A stretch of DNA of 64,000 nucleotides, from NCBI GenBank assembly GCA_900473915.1, contig UCNG01000020.1, forward strand, positions 250,439 through 314,438, read 5' to 3'. Below the pieces are notes generated by a model. That model did not search any database. It was given only the letters and a program-made list of their open reading frames with translations, and was not told the origin of the DNA. Position 1 is the stretch's first letter. Each line of letters opens with the position of its first letter. This DNA is from Hyphomicrobiales bacterium. GTDB lineage: Bacteria > Pseudomonadota > Alphaproteobacteria > Rhizobiales > Rhizobiaceae. Below, piece by piece: positions 1,416-23,063 of this stretch. The translations under genes were made by a program, and so were the position numbers.

Positions 1416-1471
1416 CGTCTTTCGCCTATGTTGCGGTTTCTGAAACAACTTATCATGAACGCGAGAGTTCC

Positions 1472-1999
1472 GTGACCGTATCAGTGACCGCATCAGCGCC
1501 AAACAGCATTCTTTTCATCTGCGCCGGCAATATCTGCCGGTCTCCGCTGGCCGAAGGCGTGATGGGGCAGGTGCTTGAAAAGCGCGGCATTCGCCATGTG
1601 CTGGTCGATTCCGCCGGAACCAATGGCTACCATACCGGCGAGGAACCGGACGAGCGCTCCATCAGCGTTGCGGCGCGTCATGGTCTCGATATTTCGGGGC
1701 AGCGCTGCCGCCAGCTGATCGCAGGTGATTTCAGCCGTTTCGACCTGATCCTCGGGATGGACCGCTACAATATGCGGATGATCGCCGGGCGACAGCCCGC
1801 AAATGCAAGCGCGCATATCGGGCTTTTCACCGAGATTGCCGAAGGGCGGGCGGTTGAAATCCCCGATCCCTATTACGGCGGGACCGGGGATTTCGAAAAG
1901 GTCTACCGGATGGTTCTGGCGGCTTCCATCGCACTTGCCGACCAGTTCTGGCCCGTGCGGGAAACGGCGACCAAAGGCCAGGCTTCTTCCACGATGTAA
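1472..1999 (+). CDS. Low-molecular-weight protein-tyrosine phosphatase
   Basis: The product is about 175 aa. The P-loop C(X)5R is at the N-terminus (CAGNICRS, C17 and R23 from the proposed start), and the general-acid motif DPYYG lies near residue 130, so the active site looks complete. The frame is open from an ATG at 1409, but that would overlap the start of phhB. A GTG at 1472 with GAGAG four bases upstream puts the P-loop at the usual distance from the N-terminus. The substrate is unknown; relatives act on protein phosphotyrosine or exopolysaccharide kinases. The last 97 bases overlap the 3' end of the convergent thpR gene. Confidence 0.85.
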   Translation: MTVSVTASAPNSILFICAGNICRSPLAEGVMGQVLEKRGIRHVLVDSAGTNGYHTGEEPDERSISVAARHGLDISGQRCRQLIAGDFSRFDLILGMDRYNMRMIAGRQPANASAHIGLFTEIAEGRAVEIPDPYYGGTGDFEKVYRMVLAASIALADQFWPVRETATKGQASSTM

Positions 2000-2499
2000 G
2001 GCCCGCCGCCAACCGAATCGCGCGACGACATCAGCACGAACCGTCCCACCTTGAAGGGCAGCGTCGCGAAGTTGCCGCGTGAGGACAGATAACGCGCCAC
2101 ATCGTCGATGCGGGCGTTTCTGAGCCGCGCCAGCGTCACATGCGGCGTGAACTTGCGCGGATCGGCGGGAATGTGCAGCCGCTGGCAGATACGTTCGATT
2201 TCCGCCTGCAAAGCATTGAGTTCAGGCGAGGGGGATACACCCGCATAGATGCTGTGCGGCTTTTTGGAGCCGAACGCATTGACACCCGAGAGGTTGAGCA
2301 TGAATTCGGGCCGCCGCACGCGATCGAGCGCATTGGCAACCTCGTCGGCCACGTGGCCTTCCACATCTCCGATAAAACGCAGCGTTATGTGGTAGTTTTC
2401 GACATCAATCCAGCGTGCGCCGGGAAGACCGCCTCGCAACAACGAGAGCGAAAGCGCGGCATCACGCGGGATTTCGAGGGCAGTGAAAAGACGCGGCAT
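1903..2499 (-). CDS. thpR: RNA 2',3'-cyclic phosphodiesterase (2H family)
   Basis: A 198-aa member of the 2H phosphoesterase family (once called 2'-5' RNA ligase), which opens 2',3'-cyclic phosphates. Both catalytic HxTx motifs are present: HITL at residues 37-40 and HVTL at 120-123. The start has a strong GAGGAGG site 8 bases upstream. A C-terminal extension of about 25 residues beyond the usual family end is encoded on the strand opposite the phosphatase tail, giving a tail-to-tail coding overlap of 97 bases (1903-1999). Confidence 0.9.
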   Translation of the reverse strand: MPRLFTALEIPRDAALSLSLLRGGLPGARWIDVENYHITLRFIGDVEGHVADEVANALDRVRRPEFMLNLSGVNAFGSKKPHSIYAGVSPSPELNALQAEIERICQRLHIPADPRKFTPHVTLARLRNARIDDVARYLSSRGNFATLPFKVGRFVLMSSRDSVGGGPYIVEEAWPLVAVSRTGQNWSASAMEAARTIR

Positions 2500-2528
2500 A
2501 AGGCATCCTCCTCGAAGCGTTCCCTGTC

Positions 2529-2630
2529 AGAGCGCCTGCATCCGGCTGGATGCGTGAAAGACGCTCTAACCCAGAGTGTCAGTGCATCGTTCCATCGATG
2601 ATTCGATATTTGCCGATGCAGCTAGAGCGA
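2529..2630. repeat. Mosaic palindromic repeat element
   Basis: The gap between thpR and the esterase gene holds nested inverted repeats. A perfect GCATCC-GGCT-GGATGC hairpin (2538-2553) sits inside AGAGCG (2529-2534) and CGCTCT (2562-2567) arms. A second pair, TGCATCG (2583-2589) and CGATGCA (2614-2620), follows. The AGAGCG/CGCTCTAA border motif recurs around the other palindromic elements of this window, so this is probably another member of that Rhizobiales repeat family. Confidence 0.6.
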
Positions 2631-2677
2631 ATCAAAGTTTCCTGTCGGGGGCAAGCTGTTTATGCTCCCGGCTGGCG

Positions 2678-3397
2678 TCAGCCTCCCGATGTCCCCTTGT
2701 TTTGCATATCCGTCAGGCTCTTTTCGATAGTGGGCATGAAATTGGTCACCATCGTTTCGACGCCTTTCTCATTGGGGTGCATTCCGTCCTCGAGCAGAAA
2801 CTCCTTCTTCGTTGCTACCCCGTCGAGGAAAAACGGGTAGAGCGGCACGCCGTATTTCTGCGCCAGCTTCGGATAGATCGGGTTGAATTTGGCGGCATAA
2901 TCCTTGCCCATGTTGGGCGGGGCCATCATGCCGGCGAGAATGACCGAAATGCCGCGCTGCTTGAGGCGCGCCAGCATTTCGTCGAGGTTCTTTTCGGTAA
3001 TGTCGGGCTCGATGCCGCGCAGCGCGTCATTGGCGCCAAGTTCAAGGATCACGAGATCGGTGCCATCGGGAACCGACCAGTCGATCCGCGAAAGACCGCC
3101 CGTGGTGGTGTCGCCCGACACGCCCGCATTCTCGATCGAAACCTCGATGCCCTTGTCGTTGAGCGCCTTTTCAAGCTGCTGCGGAAAGGCGGCATTGGAA
3201 GGCAGCAGATAGCCCGCCATCAGGCTGTCGCCGAAGCCGACAATCCTGATCTGGGACAGTTGCTCGGTCGGCAATGCGTCTTCAAGGCCGGTCGGTTCTT
3301 CCTGCGCCTGCGCCGAAATGACGGGGCTTGCCGCCATAAAAGATGCAATCGCCGCAAAAACAGGGAGCCATGCCGGAATTGAGAGTTTGAAACACAT
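2678..3397 (-). CDS. Periplasmic SGNH-hydrolase (TesA-like arylesterase / lysophospholipase)
   Basis: A 239-aa exported GDSL/SGNH esterase. The signal peptide covers about residues 1-31 (hydrophobic core then AQA). The SGNH blocks are all visible: GFGDSLMAGY with nucleophile S58, the block II glycine in AGVSGD, GAND at 121-124, and DGMHPN with D204 and H207. It is related to E. coli TesA and acts on acyl or aryl esters in the periplasm. It is divergent from the ABC ATPase at 3518, the same gene partnership as E. coli tesA-ybbA-ybbP, which suggests the two units share a physiological role. Confidence 0.88.
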   Translation of the reverse strand: MCFKLSIPAWLPVFAAIASFMAASPVISAQAQEEPTGLEDALPTEQLSQIRIVGFGDSLMAGYLLPSNAAFPQQLEKALNDKGIEVSIENAGVSGDTTTGGLSRIDWSVPDGTDLVILELGANDALRGIEPDITEKNLDEMLARLKQRGISVILAGMMAPPNMGKDYAAKFNPIYPKLAQKYGVPLYPFFLDGVATKKEFLLEDGMHPNEKGVETMVTNFMPTIEKSLTDMQNKGTSGG

Positions 3398-13553: not shown

Positions 13554-14231
13554 ATGCGGCTGGAAGCCGAAAATCTGGCGGGCGAAAGGGGCGGCGAAAC
13601 GATTTTCGCGGGCCTTTCTCTTGCGCTCGGTGACGGCGAGGCGCTGGTGGTGACCGGCCCCAACGGCTCCGGCAAGTCCACGCTTTTGCGAATCATCTGC
13701 GGCCTGCTCGCCCCGCAAGCGGGGAGGGTGGAACTCACCGACGATGGTGTGGCCGTGCCGGTGCGCGCCGCCTGTCACTATCTCGGCCACCAGAATGCGA
13801 TGAAGCCCGCGCTCAGCGTGCGGGAAAACCTGTCCTTCTGGCAGAATTTCAACGGTGCGGCGCAGATGGAGATCGATGAAGCGCTGGAGGCGGTGGACCT
13901 TCCCGGCGTGGAGCATCTGCCGTTCGGCTATTTGTCGACGGGGCAAAAGCGCCGTGTTTCCATCGCCAAGCTTCTGGTCAGCCACCGTCCGCTCTGGATC
14001 GTCGACGAGCCGACTGCGGGTCTCGACAAGGCGTCGGAAACCCGCTTTGCGGAAATCATGCGCGGCCATATGCGGGAGGGCGGCATGATCGTCGCCGCCA
14101 CGCATATTCCGCTAGGCTTGGATGCAGTTTCAGGGAAAGTGGAAACCGGTTTCCCGTCCGAAACTGCATTGGAAAGAAGTATTGGCGTGCGTGCGCTCGA
14201 CATGGCCGCCTATTCGCTTGAGGTCGCCTGA
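13554..14231 (+). CDS. ccmA: Heme exporter ATP-binding protein CcmA
   Basis: 225 aa from ATG 13554. It is the ATPase of the CcmABCD complex that releases heme-loaded CcmE for cytochrome c maturation. Walker A is GPNGSGKST (35-43), the signature is LSTGQKRRV and Walker B is LWIVDEPTAGLD. Oddity: codons of about residues 190-206 lie within a 48-base palindromic repeat (14122-14169) of the kind found between genes elsewhere in this window, so the C-terminal segment is partly repeat-encoded. Its last base is the first base of the ccmB start codon. Confidence 0.93.
   Translation: MRLEAENLAGERGGETIFAGLSLALGDGEALVVTGPNGSGKSTLLRIICGLLAPQAGRVELTDDGVAVPVRAACHYLGHQNAMKPALSVRENLSFWQNFNGAAQMEIDEALEAVDLPGVEHLPFGYLSTGQKRRVSIAKLLVSHRPLWIVDEPTAGLDKASETRFAEIMRGHMREGGMIVAATHIPLGLDAVSGKVETGFPSETALERSIGVRALDMAAYSLEVA
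14122..14169. repeat. Palindromic repeat element inside ccmA
   Basis: Outer arms ATGCAGTTTC (14122-14131) and GAAACTGCAT (14160-14169) pair perfectly. Inner arms GGGAAA (14133-14138) and TTTCCC (14150-14155) also pair. The centre AAAGTGGAAACCGGTTTC is shared, in reverse orientation, with the intergenic element at 39629-39673. It is read through in frame as part of CcmA. Confidence 0.8.
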
Positions 14232-14896
14232 TGCTGGCGCTTTTCCTGAGAGACTTGCGCCTCAGTTTCCGCGCCGGTGGCGGCGCGCTGATCGGCATAT
14301 TGTTCTTCCTCGCGGTCATTGCCGTTATGCCCTTCGGCGTCGGGCCGGACCTCAATCTTCTGGCGCGCATCGGTCCCGCCATGCTGTGGATCGGCGCGCT
14401 GCTGGCAACGCTTCTGGGGCTGGACCGGCTGTTTCAGGCCGACCGGGAGGACGGCTCGCTCGACCTGCTGCTGATCGGCGCGGACAGTCACATGCTGGCC
14501 TTCACGGTTTTCGTGAAATGCGTGGCGCATTGGGTGGCAAGCGTGCTGCCGCTGGTGATCGCATCGCCGATGCTGGGCCTGTTCATGAACATGGATGCAT
14601 CGGCAATCGGCGCGACATCGCTGACGCTTCTGGTGGGAACGCCTGCCATCGCCTTTATCGGCGCGGTGGGTGCGGCGCTTGCCGTGGCGCTGCCGCGTGG
14701 CGGGCTGCTGGTGTCGGTGATCGTTCTGCCGCTCACCATTCCGGTGCTCATTTTCGGTGTATCAGCTTCGCAAGGGGCGACGGTAGACAATGCGCCCTTT
14801 CTGGCGCCATTCCTCATTCTTGCTGCACTCACCCTGTTCTTTGCAGTCCTCGGGCCGCTCGCTGCAAGCGCGGCGCTCAAAAGTTCGGCGGATTGA
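14231..14896 (+). CDS. ccmB: Heme exporter membrane protein CcmB
   Basis: A 221-aa integral membrane protein with six predicted TM helices, the permease partner of CcmA. The N-terminus (LFLRDLRLSFRAGGGALIGILFFL) and the FQADREDGSLDLLL loop are typical of CcmB. The start codon shares a base with the ccmA stop, indicating coupled translation. Confidence 0.93.
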   Translation: MLALFLRDLRLSFRAGGGALIGILFFLAVIAVMPFGVGPDLNLLARIGPAMLWIGALLATLLGLDRLFQADREDGSLDLLLIGADSHMLAFTVFVKCVAHWVASVLPLVIASPMLGLFMNMDASAIGATSLTLLVGTPAIAFIGAVGAALAVALPRGGLLVSVIVLPLTIPVLIFGVSASQGATVDNAPFLAPFLILAALTLFFAVLGPLAASAALKSSAD

Positions 14897-14967
14897 AAAG
14901 TTCGACCGATTGACGCAGTTGATTTCGGTCAATTGAACGGCACGGGGGGGACAGGTAAATAGAGGCC

Positions 14968-15765
14968 ATGGAAAAAGACATGACCAAAGACGCCGTTAAG
15001 ACCACGAGCTGGCTCGATCTGGCCAATCCCACGCGGTTCCTTGCCTTTGCGGGCAAGGTCTTGCCATGGCTGGCCGTGCTTTCCGCGCTGCTGCTGGCGG
15101 CTGGCCTCTATATGGTATTCTTCCAGTCGCCGGAGGATTATCAGCAGGGCATGACGGTTCGCATCATGTATATCCATGTGCCTTTCGCATGGCTTTCCAT
15201 GATGTGCTACTCGATCATGGCCGTTTCGGCGCTGGGCACGCTGGTCTGGCGGCATCCGCTGGCCGATGTGTCGATCCGCGCCGCCGCGCCGCTGGGCGCC
15301 GTCTTCACCGCGCTTGCGCTGGCCACCGGCTCGCTCTGGGGCAAGCCGATGTGGGGCACGTGGTGGGTGTGGGATGCGCGGCTGACCTCGGTCTTCGTGC
15401 TGTTCCTGATGTATCTCGGCATCATCGCGCTGTCGCGCGCCATGGATGATCCGGCAAAGAGCGCCAAGCCGGTGGCCGTGCTCACGCTGGTCGGCTTCAT
15501 CAACATCCCGATCATCAAATTCTCGGTCGACTGGTGGAACACGCTGCACCAGCCAGCTTCGGTGTTCCGCATGGACGGCCCGACCATCGATGCGTCCATG
15601 CTGCGCCCGCTTTTCGTGATGGCCATCGGCTTCTCGCTTCTGTTCTTCACACTGCACATGATGGCCATGCGCAATGAAATCTGGCGTCGCCGCGTGGCGT
15701 CGATGAAGAAACTTGCGGCACGCAGCGCAGACCGTAATCTCAAGGCACAGGAGGGCGCAGTATGA
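14968..15765 (+). CDS. ccmC: Heme transporter / handling protein CcmC
   Basis: A 265-aa six-TM protein that loads heme onto CcmE. The tryptophan-rich periplasmic heme-binding motif WGKPMWGTWWVWDARLTS is intact (about residues 126-143). The conserved flanking histidines are also present, in YIHVPFAWLSM and in WWNTLHQPAS. The gene starts 71 bases after ccmB with a GAGG site, and its stop overlaps the ccmD start (ATGA). Confidence 0.95.
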   Translation: MEKDMTKDAVKTTSWLDLANPTRFLAFAGKVLPWLAVLSALLLAAGLYMVFFQSPEDYQQGMTVRIMYIHVPFAWLSMMCYSIMAVSALGTLVWRHPLADVSIRAAAPLGAVFTALALATGSLWGKPMWGTWWVWDARLTSVFVLFLMYLGIIALSRAMDDPAKSAKPVAVLTLVGFINIPIIKFSVDWWNTLHQPASVFRMDGPTIDASMLRPLFVMAIGFSLLFFTLHMMAMRNEIWRRRVASMKKLAARSADRNLKAQEGAV

Positions 15766-15932
15766 ACCATCTTGGCTTCGTTCTCGCCTCCTATGGCATC
15801 ACGCTTGCAGCGCTCGCCGTCACCATCGGCTGGATATTGATTGATCAGCGCATCCAGAAAAACGAATTGAAGCGGCTTGAAGCGCAGGGCGTGCGCCGCC
15901 GTTCCGCAAAATCCCCCGGTAAGGCACAATGA
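15762..15932 (+). CDS. ccmD: Heme exporter small protein CcmD
   Basis: A 56-aa single-TM protein: MNHLGFVLASYG, then a hydrophobic helix (about 13-27), then a basic cytoplasmic tail (KNELKRLEAQGVRRR). Family features are the short length, N-terminal aromatic residues and the basic tail. It completes the CcmABCD complex. Start and stop both overlap neighbours by four bases (ATGA at 15762 and at 15929), so the whole ccmC-D-G segment is translationally coupled. Confidence 0.92.
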   Translation: MNHLGFVLASYGITLAALAVTIGWILIDQRIQKNELKRLEAQGVRRRSAKSPGKAQ

Positions 15933-16516
15933 CCGAAACGACCGAAAAGCCCGTCGCGCCGAAAAAGCGCTCCACCTGGGTTGCCCTGCTGCCGCTGGCG
16001 ATTTTCGTCGGGCTGGCGGCGGTGTTCGCGGTCCAGCTTCTGTCGGGTAAGGACAATACGACGATACCGTCCGCGCTGATCGGCAAGCAGGCCCCGCAGA
16101 CCAACCTGCCGCCTGTCGAAGGTCTGGCGCGCGATGGCGCGCCTGTTCCGGGCCTCGACAGCGAGGATTTTAAGGGCAAGCTGACGCTGGTGAATGTCTG
16201 GGGATCATGGTGCGTCCCCTGCCGTCAGGAACACCCGCTCTTGATGGAAATCGCCAAGGACGAGCGCATCCGCGTGGTTGGCCTCAATTACAAGGACCAG
16301 CCGGAAAATGCGCGTCGCTTCCTCGGCGATCTCGGCAATCCGTTTGCTGCCGTCGGCGCCGACCGCGCCGGACGTTCCGCCATCGAATGGGGCGTCTATG
16401 GCGTGCCGGAAACCTTCCTCGTCGATGAGACAGGCAAGATCGTCTATAAGCATGTCGGCCCGTTTACGCCGGAATCGGTAAAGAACGACCTGATGCCAAT
16501 TTTGGGTAGTAGATAG
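15929..16516 (+). CDS. ccmG: Thiol:disulfide interchange protein CcmG/DsbE
   Basis: 195 aa. An N-terminal TM anchor (about 17-38) precedes a periplasmic thioredoxin fold with active site WCVPC (C95, C98) and the cis-proline loop GVYGVPETF. It reduces apocytochrome c haem-site cysteines. The final codons (after KNDLMP) become noticeably AT-rich and end just where the foreign RT segment begins, so the natural C-terminus may have been altered at that junction. ccmE, ccmF and ccmH are not in this window. Confidence 0.93.
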   Translation: MTETTEKPVAPKKRSTWVALLPLAIFVGLAAVFAVQLLSGKDNTTIPSALIGKQAPQTNLPPVEGLARDGAPVPGLDSEDFKGKLTLVNVWGSWCVPCRQEHPLLMEIAKDERIRVVGLNYKDQPENARRFLGDLGNPFAAVGADRAGRSAIEWGVYGVPETFLVDETGKIVYKHVGPFTPESVKNDLMPILGSR

Positions 16517-16542
16517 AATACAATTAGCGTTAGGGGGAGAAA

Positions 16543-18180
16543 TTGGGGGCACTTAAGGTTGGTTCGCCATTTGGCTTGGAAAAAAGATATTTAGATGCGA
16601 TAGACTGGGAGTTAGCAATCCAACGCATTTCAAATGATATAAGGTCAGATTTTATATTTGCACCGCATATCCGTTATATATTGAGGCAAAAAAAGGACAA
16701 TTTGATAGATTTAGTTAAAGGTGAACTTTCGTCTGGAAAATATATTCCGAGTTTACCTGTAACTATAGAGGTTCCGAAATCTAGTTGTATCAAGATATCT
16801 TCTCAGCCGCCGAGGCCTGGGCCAAATTACTCGCGTCCAGGTAGCATATTGATGCCAAAAGATAGATTGGTTTATCAAATTATTTCGGACGAGGCCGCTG
16901 AAATAATTTCAAAAAAGACAGATAAAAATAGATCTTATAGCCACATACTAGATGCAGAAAATCCTGAAAAGATGTTTCGGCCAACGCGTGTTTGTTGGGA
17001 TGCGTTCCAGCAAGATATGAGGAAGAAGACATCTAAAGAAAGAGTTAAGTATGTTTTAAAAATTGATATAGCAAACTTTTTTGGTTCTATTAACCAACAT
17101 ACGCTAGTGAATGTCCTGGCGGATGCTGGATTAAAGAAGCCTTTTGTCGAGCGATTAGAGAATATTTTAACATCGTTTTCTGGTGACAGATCGTCTCGCG
17201 GTATTATACAGGGAGTTTTTCCCAGTGATCTACTAGGTAATTTTTACTTGGAGCCTTTGGATAGATTCCTAGCTGATAAGGGTGTCCCTTCTGCTAGATA
17301 CGTCGATGACGTTTATATATTTGTTAGAAGTGTTGGTGAAGCTGAAACTTTAGTTCGAGCATTGATCCCTGAGTTGCGAAGCTATGATCTTTCCCTAAAT
17401 GAAGCAAAGTCTGCCATCATTCCAAAGAAATTGTTGGTCGTGGAGGAACCAGATTTAGAGGACCTATTTCGTACAGCTATCGATGAGGTCTCGCAGCAGT
17501 TGGATAGAGAGAGCTTTGATGTCAGTTATGGTTTTCAAATGCGCTGGGAGGAGGACGATGAAGATGACGAGGAAAGCGAAACATCTGACGATGCAGAAGA
17601 TGAAGATGACTTTTTAAAGATTGAAGCGACTAAAAAGCTATTTGATGGAATAGATGATTATTCGGGGCACGAAGAGAGTATAGAGCGATTTTGTTTGCCG
17701 ATCTTTACAAAAGCGTCGTCAGATTATGCCATTGATCACGTTTTGAAGTCATTTGACGACAGGCCGTCAATGTCGCAATTATACTGTGCTTATTTATCTA
17801 GGTTTATGGAAGATGAAGATGTTTATACATTTTTATGTGAAGCCATTCAGGATTCCGATAGATATGACTGGCAAAGGATGTGGATTTTAGCTTCGCTCTT
17901 GCAAAGAGAAGCTGTCGAAGATTCCTTAGTACGCGATGTAAATAGCATATTTTCTGATGGAGGCTGTCATGAAACACTTAGAGCTGTTGCGGCTATATTT
18001 ATAGGTAGATTTGGAGATGCAGCAAGAAGAAAGTCATTGGTAAAGAGTTATGGAAATGTTAGCGTTTATATTCAGTCTGCTATATTCTACATTTCTCGGA
18101 AGTGGCCTGTTGTTGAAAAAAATAACGCTAAATCAATGTGGGGTAATGGTAACGAGTTAAATAAATTGATAAAAGATTGA
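16543..18180 (+). CDS. Stand-alone reverse transcriptase, Abi/UG-like (probable defence gene)
   Basis: 545 aa, uninterrupted. The start is a TTG at 16543 behind a strong GGGGGAG site. RT palm motifs are visible: motif A LKIDIANFFGSI (D175), the motif B region RGIIQGVFPSDLLGNFYL (219-236) and the catalytic YVDD box (253-256, D255/D256), so polymerase activity should be possible. Residues 335-356 form a highly acidic linker. Residues 378-520 look like helical (HEAT or alpha-repeat-like) sequence. There is no maturase X or HNH domain of group II introns. DNA is far more AT-rich than its neighbours (19 of 60 G+C at 16621-16680, against 34 of 60 at 16381-16440), pointing to horizontal acquisition. 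It lies 26 bases behind ccmG and may be transcribed with the ccm operon. The Abi/UG (DRT) assignment is inferred from architecture, and the exact subgroup is unknown. Confidence 0.8.
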   Translation: MGALKVGSPFGLEKRYLDAIDWELAIQRISNDIRSDFIFAPHIRYILRQKKDNLIDLVKGELSSGKYIPSLPVTIEVPKSSCIKISSQPPRPGPNYSRPGSILMPKDRLVYQIISDEAAEIISKKTDKNRSYSHILDAENPEKMFRPTRVCWDAFQQDMRKKTSKERVKYVLKIDIANFFGSINQHTLVNVLADAGLKKPFVERLENILTSFSGDRSSRGIIQGVFPSDLLGNFYLEPLDRFLADKGVPSARYVDDVYIFVRSVGEAETLVRALIPELRSYDLSLNEAKSAIIPKKLLVVEEPDLEDLFRTAIDEVSQQLDRESFDVSYGFQMRWEEDDEDDEESETSDDAEDEDDFLKIEATKKLFDGIDDYSGHEESIERFCLPIFTKASSDYAIDHVLKSFDDRPSMSQLYCAYLSRFMEDEDVYTFLCEAIQDSDRYDWQRMWILASLLQREAVEDSLVRDVNSIFSDGGCHETLRAVAAIFIGRFGDAARRKSLVKSYGNVSVYIQSAIFYISRKWPVVEKNNAKSMWGNGNELNKLIKD

Positions 18181-18190
18181 TAATTATACC

Positions 18191-18221
18191 ACCCGCTCAT
18201 GATATAATACTATGAGCGGGT
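18191..18221. terminator. Perfect 10-bp inverted repeat between RT gene and ilvD
   Basis: ACCCGCTCAT (18191-18200) and ATGAGCGGGT (18212-18221) enclose an 11-base AT-rich loop. It sits 10 bases after the RT stop and 24 bases before the 3' end of convergent ilvD. It could terminate both, but neither side has a clear T-run. It could also be a structured RNA element belonging to the RT module. Confidence 0.5.
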
Positions 18222-18244
18222 AGGTCATATGAAATCTGCGAGCC

Positions 18245-20086
18245 TTAATCCGGCAGTTTCCTTACCGCGCCCTTGGCGGCACTGGTCGCCATGGCGGCGT
18301 AAGCCTTCAAGGCGGTGGAAACCTTGCGCTTGCGTTCCTCGGCTGGCTTCCAGCCCTTGGCGTCCTGCTCGGCGCGGCGTTCTGCCAGCGTTGCATCGTC
18401 CACTGCCAGATGGATCTTGCGGTTCGGAATGTCGATATCGATGATATCGCCTTCGCGTACCAGGCCGATCGTGCCGCCTTCGGCTGCTTCCGGCGAGACG
18501 TGGCCGATCGAAAGGCCCGATGAGCCGCCCGAGAAACGCCCGTCAGTGACAAGCGCGCAAGCCTTGCCCAGCCCCTTCGATTTTAGATAGCTGGTCGGGT
18601 AGAGCATTTCCTGCATGCCGGGGCCGCCGCGCGGTCCTTCATAACGGATCAGCACGATGTCGCCCGGCTTGATCTTGCCGTTCAAAATGCCGAGCACGGC
18701 CGAATCCTGGCTTTCGAAGATGCGGGCAGGGCCGGAGAATTTCAGGATGGAATCGTCAACGCCCGCCGTCTTCACGATGCAGCCGTCTTCGGCGAGGTTG
18801 CCGTAAAGCACGGCCAGACCGCCGTCCTGACTGAAGGCATGTTCCTTGGAGCGGATGACGCCCTTCTCGCGGTCGGTATCGACATGATCGAAACGGCGTT
18901 CCTGAGAAAAGGCAACCTGTGTCGGGATGCCGCCGGGAGCAGCCGAATAGAATTTGTGCACCATTTCGCTGTTGGTGCGCGTCACGTCCCAATGGTCGAG
19001 CGCCTTGCCCAGCGTTTCGCTGTGCACGGTCGGAACATCGGTGGTCAGCAGGCCCGCGTGATCGAGCTGGCCGAGAATGCCCATGATGCCGCCCGCATGG
19101 TGCACGTCTTCCATATGCACATTGGCGACGGCAGGCGCGACCTTGCACAGCACCGGCACGCGGCGCGACAGGCGGTCGATATCGGCCATGGTGAAATCGA
19201 TTTCCGCTTCCTGCGCGGCGGCGAGAAGATGCAGGACCGTATTGGTCGAACCGCCCATGGCGATGTCGAGCGTCATGGCGTTTTCAAAGGCCGGGAAGCT
19301 TGCAATCGAGCGCGGCAGCACGCTCTCGTCATTCTGTTCGTAATAACGCCGCGCGAGATCAACAACCAGATGACCGGCTTCCACGAAGAGACGCTTGCGG
19401 TCGGCATGGGTGGCGAGCGTGGAACCGTTGCCCGGCAGCGACAGGCCGAGCGCTTCGGTGAGGCAGTTCATCGAATTGGCGGTGAACATGCCCGAGCACG
19501 AACCGCAGGTCGGGCAGGCGGAGCGTTCGATGGCCTTGACCTGATCGTCGGAGTAGTGATCGTCGGCGGCGGCAACCATCGCATCTACGAGGTCGAGCTT
19601 CTTGACCTGATCGTCCCAGACGACCTTGCCTGCTTCCATCGGCCCGCCGGAAACGAACACGACCGGGATATTGAGGCGGAGCGCCGCCATCAGCATGCCG
19701 GGGGTGATCTTGTCGCAGTTGGAAATGCAGACCATCGCATCGGCGCAATGCGCATTGACCATATATTCGACCGAGTCGGCGATGAGCTCGCGCGACGGCA
19801 GCGAATAGAGCATGCCGTCATGGCCCATGGCGATGCCGTCATCGACCGCGATGGTGTTGAATTCCTTTGCCACGCCGCCAGCGCTTTCGATTTCGCGCGC
19901 AACGAGCTGGCCGAGATCCTTCAGGTGCACGTGGCCGGGCACGAACTGGGTGAACGAGTTCACCACGGCAATGATCGGCTTGCCGAAATCCTCATCCTTC
20001 ATGCCGGTGGCGCGCCATAGGCCGCGCGCGCCGGCCATGTTGCGACCGTGGGTGGTTGTACGCGAACGATAAGGAGGCATTTTCAA
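18245..20086 (-). CDS. ilvD: Dihydroxy-acid dehydratase
   Basis: A 613-aa enzyme of valine, leucine and isoleucine synthesis that converts 2,3-dihydroxy-3-methylbutanoate (or the methylpentanoate) to the 2-oxo acid. Fe-S cluster cysteines are in [12 protein letters not shown] and [11 protein letters not shown]. The start [25 protein letters not shown] and the C-terminal [21 protein letters not shown] are typical of the family. Length is that of the E. coli enzyme. It is monocistronic here and converges with the RT gene. No other ilv genes are nearby. Confidence 0.97.
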
Positions 20087-20324
20087 ACCTTTTAGGAACT
20101 ATTCTAATTCTAACCGCTATGACAGAACCGCCCCCGCTGAGCAAAGCGCAAATTGCCCCATATTGTCCCATTTTAGGAGGGAGGCAGGACCATTCGCAGG
20201 CTTGCGGACAACGGAAAGGGTTCCGGCGTGCGACAGCTTTCGCAGGCACAGACAAGGCAATCTAGCACGTTGCAGTCATAATGCAAAAGATTTTGCGTTG
20301 AAAACGTAACGAAATTGCTTGGTG

Positions 20325-20765
20325 TTACAATGGGGTGCTGGCCATGGCGGCGTCGAGCAGGGCGTTTGCGGTTTTCATCCGCTGTTCGGCGGCGGGGCGA
20401 AACTCTTCCGGCAAGCGGTCTGGATGGTTGCTGGCGGCAAAGCTGCGGCGACGCTGCTGAAGTTCGGCGCGTTTCAGGCCGGGGCGCAGGTCGAGCTCCC
20501 GGCGGATCGCTTCCGGCGACTGTTTTTTCATGCGCGCTTCCATCGCCTGTCGTTCCCGGACCGGCGCGGCCTCGGGCAGGGGTTCAATATCGAACAGGCT
20601 TTGCAGATCGTCCGGCTGGCGCGATGTTGCGGGCGCATCGCCAAACCCTGCGGAAAAGACGGCGGAAGCAAATCCGAATTGCGGGCCGCGGCTGTCGCTC
20701 GCCGGGCCTTGATCAGCCTCGACTTCCTTCAGCACTGTCGCGAAATCGGGAAATGTCGGCCGCAT
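20325..20765 (-). CDS. J-domain-like hypothetical protein
   Basis: 146 aa. The first 70 residues are low-complexity and unrecognised. Residues about 83-141 resemble a shortened J domain: a helix with basic residues (KRAELQQRRRSFAASN), the HPD tripeptide at 114-116, then a helix ending in the QRMKTANALLDAA pattern that matches the J-domain IxxAYxxL region. HPD is the DnaK-stimulating motif, so it may be a co-chaperone. Its stop lies in the 238-base ilvD upstream region, and it lies in line with the receiver gene upstream (9-base gap). Confidence 0.65.
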   Translation of the reverse strand: MRPTFPDFATVLKEVEADQGPASDSRGPQFGFASAVFSAGFGDAPATSRQPDDLQSLFDIEPLPEAAPVRERQAMEARMKKQSPEAIRRELDLRPGLKRAELQQRRRSFAASNHPDRLPEEFRPAAEQRMKTANALLDAAMASTPL

Positions 20766-21530: not shown

Positions 21531-21802
21531 GTCTCTTCCTTTCGCGACGGGACCGCGTGATGCGCATGATAGCGCATATTACGGCAGCGTTTGCAGGTTA
21601 CAAACACGGACCGCCCGACGAAATCAAGAGCGAAAGCACGACGGAACGCGCGATATTCGGTCCAGCATCCTCGCCCTGAGGGCGCGCCGCCCGTCCTCAT
21701 ATGGCTGTTTCATAGAAATGTTTTAATTTACGTAATTGTAATTTTCTTGAGAGGGCGCGATAAGGCTTCTTCCCAAAGTTGTGGCTCGCGCGCATTATTT
21801 AT

Positions 21803-22951
21803 ATGAAATTTGTTCTTCCTGCCGTTCTGCTGCTCTTCTCGCTCGCTTTTTTCACAGCGTGGCTTTCCGATCGCGGGCGCCGGTTTCTCGTGCCGTATGG
21901 CGCATGTTTCCTGCTGATTGGCATTGCCATGCTGGTCCAGCTTGGCAATGTTCCTGCGGATGAGAATCTGAACACGGTGCTTTCCGCCGCATTCTATGTG
22001 GGCGGCGCGCTGGCTGGCGGCTATGGCATCCTGCAGCGAAGCGGCTTGCGCCTTCAGCCCGCCTTCTATGCATTGAGTTTCGCGCTCATCGTCGGCGGCG
22101 TCTGGTATTATTGCTACGTCAAGCCAGATCTTCTGTCGCGGGTCTATGTGCTCAACCTGGGGATGGCGACCTTGATTCTCTCGTTCGCATGGCGAGCGCG
22201 GCGGCTGTTCAGGGGGCCGCTGGTGGACAAGTTGCTGGGGGCGATGCTGGTTCTGGTGGCGCTGCATTTCCTGCCGCGCACGTTTTTGACCGCAGGTTCC
22301 CTGCTTGGCAATGTCAATGATGACGATTTTACCCGGACCGTCTTCTGGCAATGGACGGTGTTTTCCACGGCCGTCGCGGCGGTTCTGACCGGCTTCGCCC
22401 TGCTGGGGGCAGCCGGCTATGACCGTATCACCGAGCTTTCGCGTGAACGCGACAGCGATCCGCTCACAGGGCTTCTCAACCGGCGTGGTCTGGAAATGCG
22501 CTATAACGCGCTTTCTCACACAAAAAACGGCCAGTCGGGCTGGGTCGCCGTATGCGATATCGACTACTTCAAGGCGCTGAATGATGCCTATGGCCACGCG
22601 GCAGGCGACGCTGTGCTGCAAGAATTTGCAGGAATCCTGCGCAAGCTCCTTGGCGAGCGGTCATTGATTGCCCGAACAGGCGGTGAGGAATTCGTGATCT
22701 GCGTCCATGAGATGCAGGCCGATAATGTCTTCCAGCTTCTGGAAGGAATACGCCGCAATATAGAAGGACATCCTTTCCAGTGCCTGCCGAAGGAAATCAA
22801 CGTCACATGCAGCATCGGCTGTGTCCGCCTGTCCGAGCAGGGCGATTTCTGGCAGACGGTCGACAAGGCTGACAAGATTCTCTACGCCGCCAAGAAAGGC
22901 GGGCGCAACCGAACCTATGTGGAAGGGCTGGTCCGCAGCGGGACGGGGTAG
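21803..22951 (+). CDS. Membrane diguanylate cyclase (GGDEF domain)
   Basis: 382 aa from ATG 21803 (the frame is open 24 bases further upstream only through a TTG). Six or so TM helices occupy about residues 1-200. The GGDEF domain follows from DPLTGLLNRRGLE, with the active-site motif GGEEF at 293-297. The allosteric I-site (RxxD, normally just ahead) is absent: the equivalent positions read GERS, so product inhibition is not expected through that site. It makes c-di-GMP from GTP at the inner membrane. It has no partner gene in the neighbourhood. Confidence 0.9.
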   Translation: MKFVLPAVLLLFSLAFFTAWLSDRGRRFLVPYGACFLLIGIAMLVQLGNVPADENLNTVLSAAFYVGGALAGGYGILQRSGLRLQPAFYALSFALIVGGVWYYCYVKPDLLSRVYVLNLGMATLILSFAWRARRLFRGPLVDKLLGAMLVLVALHFLPRTFLTAGSLLGNVNDDDFTRTVFWQWTVFSTAVAAVLTGFALLGAAGYDRITELSRERDSDPLTGLLNRRGLEMRYNALSHTKNGQSGWVAVCDIDYFKALNDAYGHAAGDAVLQEFAGILRKLLGERSLIARTGGEEFVICVHEMQADNVFQLLEGIRRNIEGHPFQCLPKEINVTCSIGCVRLSEQGDFWQTVDKADKILYAAKKGGRNRTYVEGLVRSGTG

Positions 22952-23063
22952 TAGCCTCCTGTTGGCCAGCGATAACTTTCCGGTGATAATCCAGACATCG
23001 CTGTAAAAGATGCGTATTATTGCCATCGAAAATATGAGCGGTTGAGGAGTTCCCGAAAATCCG

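Follow-up and report, generated by a model that had tools for sequence, protein, structure and literature searches.

A solitary, apparently foreign UG20-class reverse transcriptase gene as a candidate antiphage polymerase in a Hyphomicrobiales genome

Introduction

The class 1 enzymes of the UG/Abi (DRT) family of reverse transcriptases (RTs) studied to date are described as polymerizing DNA with no nucleic-acid template, in some cases with protein priming (PMC13174585, PMC9508834, PMC11077055, and PMC13314766). AbiA is reported to prime from tyrosines (Tyr298/Tyr303) in a flexible loop between its RT and helical parts, and its conserved priming tyrosine to be required for full protection against phage (PMC11077055). 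DRT4 (UG15) and DRT6 are each described as a single gene (PMC13213688), and activation by phage ORF55 has been reported for the DRT4/DRT6 group (PMC13314766). Here we describe a gene of this family, predicted to belong to the class UG20, in 64,000 nucleotides of a Hyphomicrobiales bacterium (GCA_900473915.1, contig UCNG01000020.1, positions 250,439 to 314,438 of the forward strand; the whole stretch is called the window below, and positions count from its first letter). The gene (16543–18180, plus strand) is an intact open reading frame (ORF) of 545 amino acids with a TTG start, and is a single gene as DRT4 and DRT6 are. It lies alone between two genes that we take to be ccmG and the convergent ilvD, with 26 bp before it and 64 bp after it.

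We conclude that the gene is real, foreign, and intact and that it adds a member to a named class, while the mechanism proposed for it is supported by analogy. On balance we favor, as the probable explanation, a horizontally acquired single-gene UG20 antiphage polymerase that would make untemplated, protein-primed DNA in the manner of class 1. The existence of such a gene would not surprise specialists; its minimal cassette and a conserved linker tyrosine make the UG20 class testable.

Results and Discussion

Assignment to UG20

Profile searches place the protein in UG20, one of the named classes in the UG/Abi (DRT) family. The PADLOC model RT_UG20 (PDLC03758) covers residues 9–544 at 724.5 bits, 494 bits above the runner-up UG21 (230.5 bits), which is followed by UG22, UG19, Drt8, UG23, and UG32. 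Seven full-length relatives score 710–775 bits on the same model, so that by score the protein is an ordinary UG20; eight relatives tested in another run gave 543–759 bits. Pfam finds RVT_1 alone (residues 143–293, 60.3 bits), and a sequence-profile search of solved structures returned chiefly RT cores, with a best E of 1.3e-13 and no structure named UG20 among them. The intact UG20 proteins examined have in common the motifs SDFIxAPH and (Y/F)VDD and a tyrosine in the linker; 16 of the 17 carry YVDD and the remaining one FVDD.

An earlier note on this DNA, made from the letters alone, had described an intact 545-residue RT with Asp175, YVDD, an acidic linker, and a helical C-terminus, all of which the ORF, the alignments, and the predicted model bear out. 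Its attribution to UG/Abi-type RTs agrees with the RT_UG20 score and with the near-full-length structural matches to class 1 given below. Its view that the protein could not be placed in a named class is overturned by the margin over UG21, and the YVDD box, which it had counted as an obstacle to placement, is normal in UG20. The two outcomes that it had named as speaking against an acquired antiviral RT did not occur: the protein does not cluster with group II intron or retron RTs (PADLOC and NCBIfam profiles), and the gene is not universally conserved (0/35 genomes of the nearest genus).

Predicted Architecture

The AlphaFold model suggests that the window RT is built like class 1 enzymes of the AbiK/DRT4/DRT6 type. 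Among the matches listed, only class 1 enzymes (DRT6, DRT4/UG15, AbiK, AbiP2, and AbiA) align with it over residues ~20–545, whereas group II, diversity-generating retroelement (DGR), DRT2, and DRT9 RTs match it over the RT part only; the end of that part was set at about residue 301, where the VIA alignments with group II, DGR, and DRT9 RTs stop. AbiA, AbiK, AbiP2, DRT4, and DRT6 combine an RT with a helical domain, as the window RT does, and DRT4 and DRT6 are its best near-full-length structural matches, at 12–17% identity; AbiA differs in an additional C-terminal HEPN domain (as described in PMC11077055). The helical C-terminus (residues 362–545) is predicted at a mean pLDDT (the model's per-residue confidence) of 95.7, and a Foldseek search with the C-terminal domain returned, at each of ranks 1–20, either an alphaRep chain or an entry that had been solved together with alphaRep. 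Two hallmarks of class 1 are seen here, namely an RT domain fused to an alphaRep/HEAT-like helical domain in the predicted structure and a single gene without an adjacent noncoding RNA (ncRNA).

Relatives and Horizontal Acquisition

A genome scan (alignment A1) found 19 loci, with a best-segment identity of 52–56% in 13, 34–41% in five, and 25% in one. Of the 13 closest, nine keep a single unbroken frame, two carry frameshifts, and the other two are cut short or reach a contig end. Plasmid records add two full-length relatives, from Sinorhizobium medicae (55%) and Candidatus Manganitrophus (52%). Five deeper relatives (RT_UG20 543–742 bits) come from Oceanicaulis, Kaiserbacteria, a Methanomicrobia archaeon, Pedobacter, and a genome of the same family. 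Alignments A2–A5 leave out the broken or cut copies L013, L014, L019, L021, L022, and L004 and the remote L023 and L001; A3 includes two rows from plasmids, L002 and L003, which A2, A4, and A5 lack. In a tree of 17 UG20 proteins, the window RT included and no other class represented, the window RT is sister to a Paracoccus salipaludis protein (100/99) and not to the rhizobial ones, within a well-supported branch of 12 (100/99). This branch is set apart within UG20 by an extra loop (residues 82–95), gapped in the five deeper proteins, together with a D/E-rich linker. Copies with a frameshift or stop occur in Bradyrhizobium, Tardiphaga, and Rhizobium acidisoli (L014, L022, and L004), which fits genes under turnover.

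UG20 (E ≤ 1e-40) was found in 2/385 genomes of the class and 2/394 of the family (both counts include the search centre G001) and in 0/35 genomes of the nearest genus; the nearest genome compared is 94–95% identical to the window in the ccmG and ilvD stretch. Two Omp25/31-like ORFs and an ORF of 2888 amino acids, presumably a cyclic glucan synthase, hint that the host may belong to the Brucella–Ochrobactrum group. Weaker RT matches (E ≤ 1e-10) occur in 7/35 nearest-genus genomes, the strongest (110 bits) being a UG9 RT; two of these matches, L089 and L094, were classified. The former (1417–3114) is a UG9 (small) RT, at 789.9 bits, elsewhere in a genome of the same genus.

The composition of the gene is likewise foreign, as the earlier note had held. 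Its G+C content is 38.8% in a window of 59%, where the lowest value among 1638-bp stretches starting at or before 14500 or at or after 18501 is 51.5%; its third-position G+C (GC3) is 0.33, against 0.54–0.81 for the other ORFs listed in the window, and it is the most AT-rich gene of its 12-protein branch. The local contrast first drawn is right in one half: 19/60 G+C holds for 16621–16680, but the 34/60 set against it belongs to 16381–16440 and not to the stretch next door, the 60 bases directly upstream (16561–16620) being at 25/60 and already within the RT gene. Since UG20 was found in none of the 35 nearest-genus genomes and is patchy elsewhere, and since its closest branch is that of Paracoccus, sequence comparison indicates that the gene was gained horizontally from another lineage. 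Neither a viral nor a plasmid carrier was upheld: phage records gave eight matches, none covering 80%, and viral contigs one remote RT and then none, while of 251 plasmid records four covered 80%, the fourth at only 22% identity.

Defense Genes beside Relatives

Some UG20 copies adjoin defense genes. GajA/GajB adjoin L009 and L011, a type I specificity subunit adjoins L009, and LmuA/LmuB adjoin L002 (PADLOC); RES and HipA proteins adjoin L005 and a CHAT protein L002 (Pfam); annotated toxin-antitoxin genes adjoin L003, and SIR2 and DarT adjoin the broken copy L004. PADLOC was run on 10 neighboring proteins of three loci (7/10 matched) and Pfam on 10 of five loci (5/10 matched), chosen in both cases as interesting-looking. 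A convergent ORF starts 1 and 4 bp past the RT stop in Paracoccus (L006) and Phenylobacterium (L012), respectively.

A Linker Tyrosine as Candidate Primer

Tyr329 is the sole invariant residue among the 34 of the disordered linker; it is kept in 17/17 intact UG20 proteins examined and in all four broken or cut copies that cover its position. The same column in eight non-UG20 RTs (three Drt8, two UG13a, one UG9, and two others; Drt8, UG9, and UG13a are related to the window RT by profile) holds one tyrosine, five other residues, and two gaps. Because Tyr329 is invariant in the linker and AbiA primes from the corresponding loop, we propose it, by analogy, as the likely primer of UG20 enzymes, a single-residue prediction for a class without chemistry found in the literature searched. 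The linker is also acidic: residues 335–358 of the window protein are 71% D+E, and the aligned stretch is D/E-rich in 12/12 proteins of A3, with a length of 11–26 residues and a D+E content of 43–86%.

Table 1. Positions of the RT gene, its parts, and adjoining features in the window.
Feature	Position	Strand	Basis
Upstream host gene (taken to be ccmG); last codons unlike those of relatives	15929..16516	+	ORF list
Variable segment, 1749 bp, 39% GC, unlike related genomes	16498..18246	.	Slot comparison
Putative UG20-class reverse transcriptase	16543..18180	+	PADLOC RT_UG20, 724.5 bits, residues 9–544
RT-like (fingers/palm) part, residues ~12–301	16576..17445	+	Pfam RVT_1; VIA alignments end at ~301
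Loop, residues 82–95	16786..16827	+	pLDDT < 50; alignment
Catalytic Asp175, motif A	17065..17067	+	Invariant in 15/15 rows of alignment A2
YVDD catalytic box, residues 253–256	17299..17310	+	Alignment
Disordered D/E-rich linker between RT and helical parts, residues 323–356	17509..17610	+	pLDDT < 50
Tyr329, candidate priming residue	17527..17529	+	Alignments; analogy with AbiA Tyr298/Tyr303 as described in PMC11077055
AlphaRep/HEAT-like helical domain, residues 360–545	17620..18177	+	AlphaFold model, Foldseek
14-pair hairpin, possible terminator, between convergent RT and ilvD genes	18188..18225	.	Minimum free energy (MFE)
Downstream host gene (taken to be ilvD), convergent	18245..20086	-	ORF list

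Proposed Function and Objections

An antiviral role for the window RT is suggested by its family, its predicted fold, and the neighbors of some relatives. By analogy with the class 1 systems studied, phage infection would trigger the enzyme, which would then polymerize DNA without a nucleic-acid template; a tyrosine of the enzyme itself would serve as the covalent primer, the likeliest being Tyr329 in the flexible and acidic linker, and the protein-linked DNA would halt phage multiplication. The 26 bp, one ORF, and 64 bp between the host genes form a natural minimal cassette in which the mechanism is directly testable, and this minimal size argues that the protein alone would suffice. As a conjecture, the acidic stretch might hold the nucleic-acid groove closed until activation. 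It is possible, if doubtful, that UG20 represents a priming subtype of its own within class 1, RNA-free, primed from the linker tyrosine, and with a DNA-mimicking D/E tail that would close the groove until infection; one loop would then be both primer and safety catch.

Several observations weigh against the antiphage polymerase proposed here. No experiment on UG20 was found in the literature searched, where UG20 does not occur together with reverse transcriptase; the term is absent from the accessible text of three defense-RT papers checked for it, and that of a further RT paper (PMC8934634) has a single mention of UG21 and none of UG20. The primer site differs between classes, since AbiK is reported to prime from an N-terminal tyrosine (PMC9508834), given as Tyr44 in the fingers and so unlike the linker candidate, and DRT1 from a serine (PMC13275509). 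Rival primers are also available in UG20 itself, as Ser35, Ser133, Ser218, Ser228, Tyr414, Tyr417, and Tyr503 are invariant too (15/15), the last three lying in the helical domain, within helices that the model predicts with confidence. Searched alone, the C-terminal domain gives generic HEAT/alphaRep matches and no Abi/DRT chain among the matches listed, and the top structural Z of the model, 21.0 across 260 residues in the RT part, belongs to a group II intron RT. The defense genes beside relatives were hand-picked by eye and are therefore an illustration and not an enrichment; several UG20 copies, such as those of Paracoccus (L006) and Phenylobacterium (L012), have no neighbor recognized as defense. 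Finally, none of the eight other cargo proteins of the ccmG–ilvD slot (one per family; see below) matches PADLOC.

Alternative Explanations

A defense RT that copies an RNA template, as DRT2, DRT9, and DRT10 do, with that RNA supplied by the ORF itself or by another part of the genome, is unlikely. Use of an ncRNA is described for DRT2, DRT3a, DRT9, and DRT10, and an RNA that overlaps the ORF, or one encoded in trans, is compatible with our data. Nevertheless, no adjacent template ncRNA of the DRT2/3/9/10 type was found at the locus: Rfam gave no family at its gathering score in 14000–20500 (two chance-level matches lay below it), and among relatives the flanks are similar in only 3/120 upstream and 1/66 downstream pairs, which all come from Bradyrhizobium and Rhodopseudomonas kin; for the first 300 ORF bases the figure is 82/120 pairs. 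The little free space (26 and 64 bp) and the unconserved flanks are evidence against a separate template RNA beside the gene. The one Rfam match in six relatives' loci was a cspA thermoregulator, which in that locus (L020) lies apart from the RT. Furthermore, the predicted fold follows class 1 over almost its full length and DRT2 and DRT9 in the RT part only.

The RT might instead have been domesticated for a role outside defense, such as DNA repair or stress response; no phage phenotype was found for UG20, and the other cargo of the slot is not recognized as defense. We regard this explanation as improbable given the patchy occurrence (2/385, 2/394, and 0/35 genomes), the broken copies in relatives and the foreign composition, and the Gabija, Lamassu, and type I restriction genes that adjoin some relatives.

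It is also conceivable, at a low probability, that the gene is a defense gene carried but hardly expressed, as the stretch from 16300 to the gene start has no promoter-like match (six were found in 16300–18400 on both strands, versus 4.0 expected), the start codon is TTG, and GC3 (0.33) and codon usage are unlike those of the host. On the other side, the frame is intact, and the ccm operon, which runs the same way, stops 26 bp before the gene, so that the expression from a host operon supposed in the earlier note would be plausible, with read-through as its likely route. TTG is not itself a mark of decay, since the starts that we assigned in 15 relatives comprise 11 ATG, three TTG, and one GTG. 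Downstream, the hairpin region (18181–18248) has an MFE of −21.4 kcal/mol (z = −4.1; 0/200 shuffles equal it); the hairpin has no T-run, and a terminator scan did not call it.

An RT of a mobile retroelement (a group II intron or its kin) or a remnant of one is highly improbable, for although group_II_RT_mat is the top NCBIfam match (85.6 bits) and a group II RT has the top structural Z, the curated cut-off of 300 is far from reached, Rfam finds no intron RNA near the gene, and the C-terminus is alphaRep-like in a protein that scores 724.5 bits on RT_UG20; a standard group II intron is refuted. A retron was rejected as well, the best model (St85) giving 42.9 bits against a cut-off of 235 and only 26 bp lying upstream, with no Rfam family at gathering score.

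The ccmG–ilvD Slot and Its Cargo

The absence of tRNA and intron hallmarks and the stand-alone position, both described in the earlier note, hold: no tRNA was found in the 64-kb window, and no integrase or transposase was noticed adjoining the RT in ORF lists read by eye, without a dedicated search. The segment that the note had delimited as 16517–18230 does vary among relatives, but it extends further (Table 1), taking in the final ccmG codons at its left edge and the short ccmG–ilvD spacer up to the ilvD stop at its right edge.

Both flanks were matched in 34/35 nearest-genus genomes; the slot sequence was read in 30 of these and coordinates only in four. The slot is 61–91 bp long in 13/34, with a hairpin-like end by eye in the nine read, and 156–314 bp in 6/34, where the three of at least 250 bp, which were the ones scanned, have no ORF of 60 amino acids. 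The other 15/34 slots carry one or two ORFs, each 130 amino acids or longer, from eight families of different solo genes; the RT is a ninth cargo family, seen in the window only. With 0/8 proteins matching PADLOC and 1/8 matching Pfam (DUF4238), the slot is no recognized defense island, and its description as a defense hotspot is rejected as stated. Solo genes are swapped here at a site bounded by two core genes, and no mobility gene was noticed by eye; recombination through the core genes on either side is therefore our simplest guess for the route of exchange.

In the slot of one genome (G427, L059; slot positions 541–680), two cargoes are separated by 48 bp that repeat the ilvD 3′ end and run, by eye, into an apparent ccmG 3′ end, as if units of ccmG end, cargo, and ilvD end were stacked. 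The solo cargo of another genome (G419, L066) is a distant relative (26–28%; 27.5%, E = 1e-13) of a Bradyrhizobium gene near UG20 copies, which encodes a protein of unknown function (L009 12801–13484 and L013 3038–3721).

The slot is not unique, since a control in seven genomes shows another variable place at ~21.5–23.0 kb of the window (~21561–23044), where a region likely to encode a diguanylate cyclase is missing or much diverged in 3/7 relatives. Near the end of ccmA (14123–14193), the window has ~71–83 unaligned bases versus 11–23 in 6/7 relatives.
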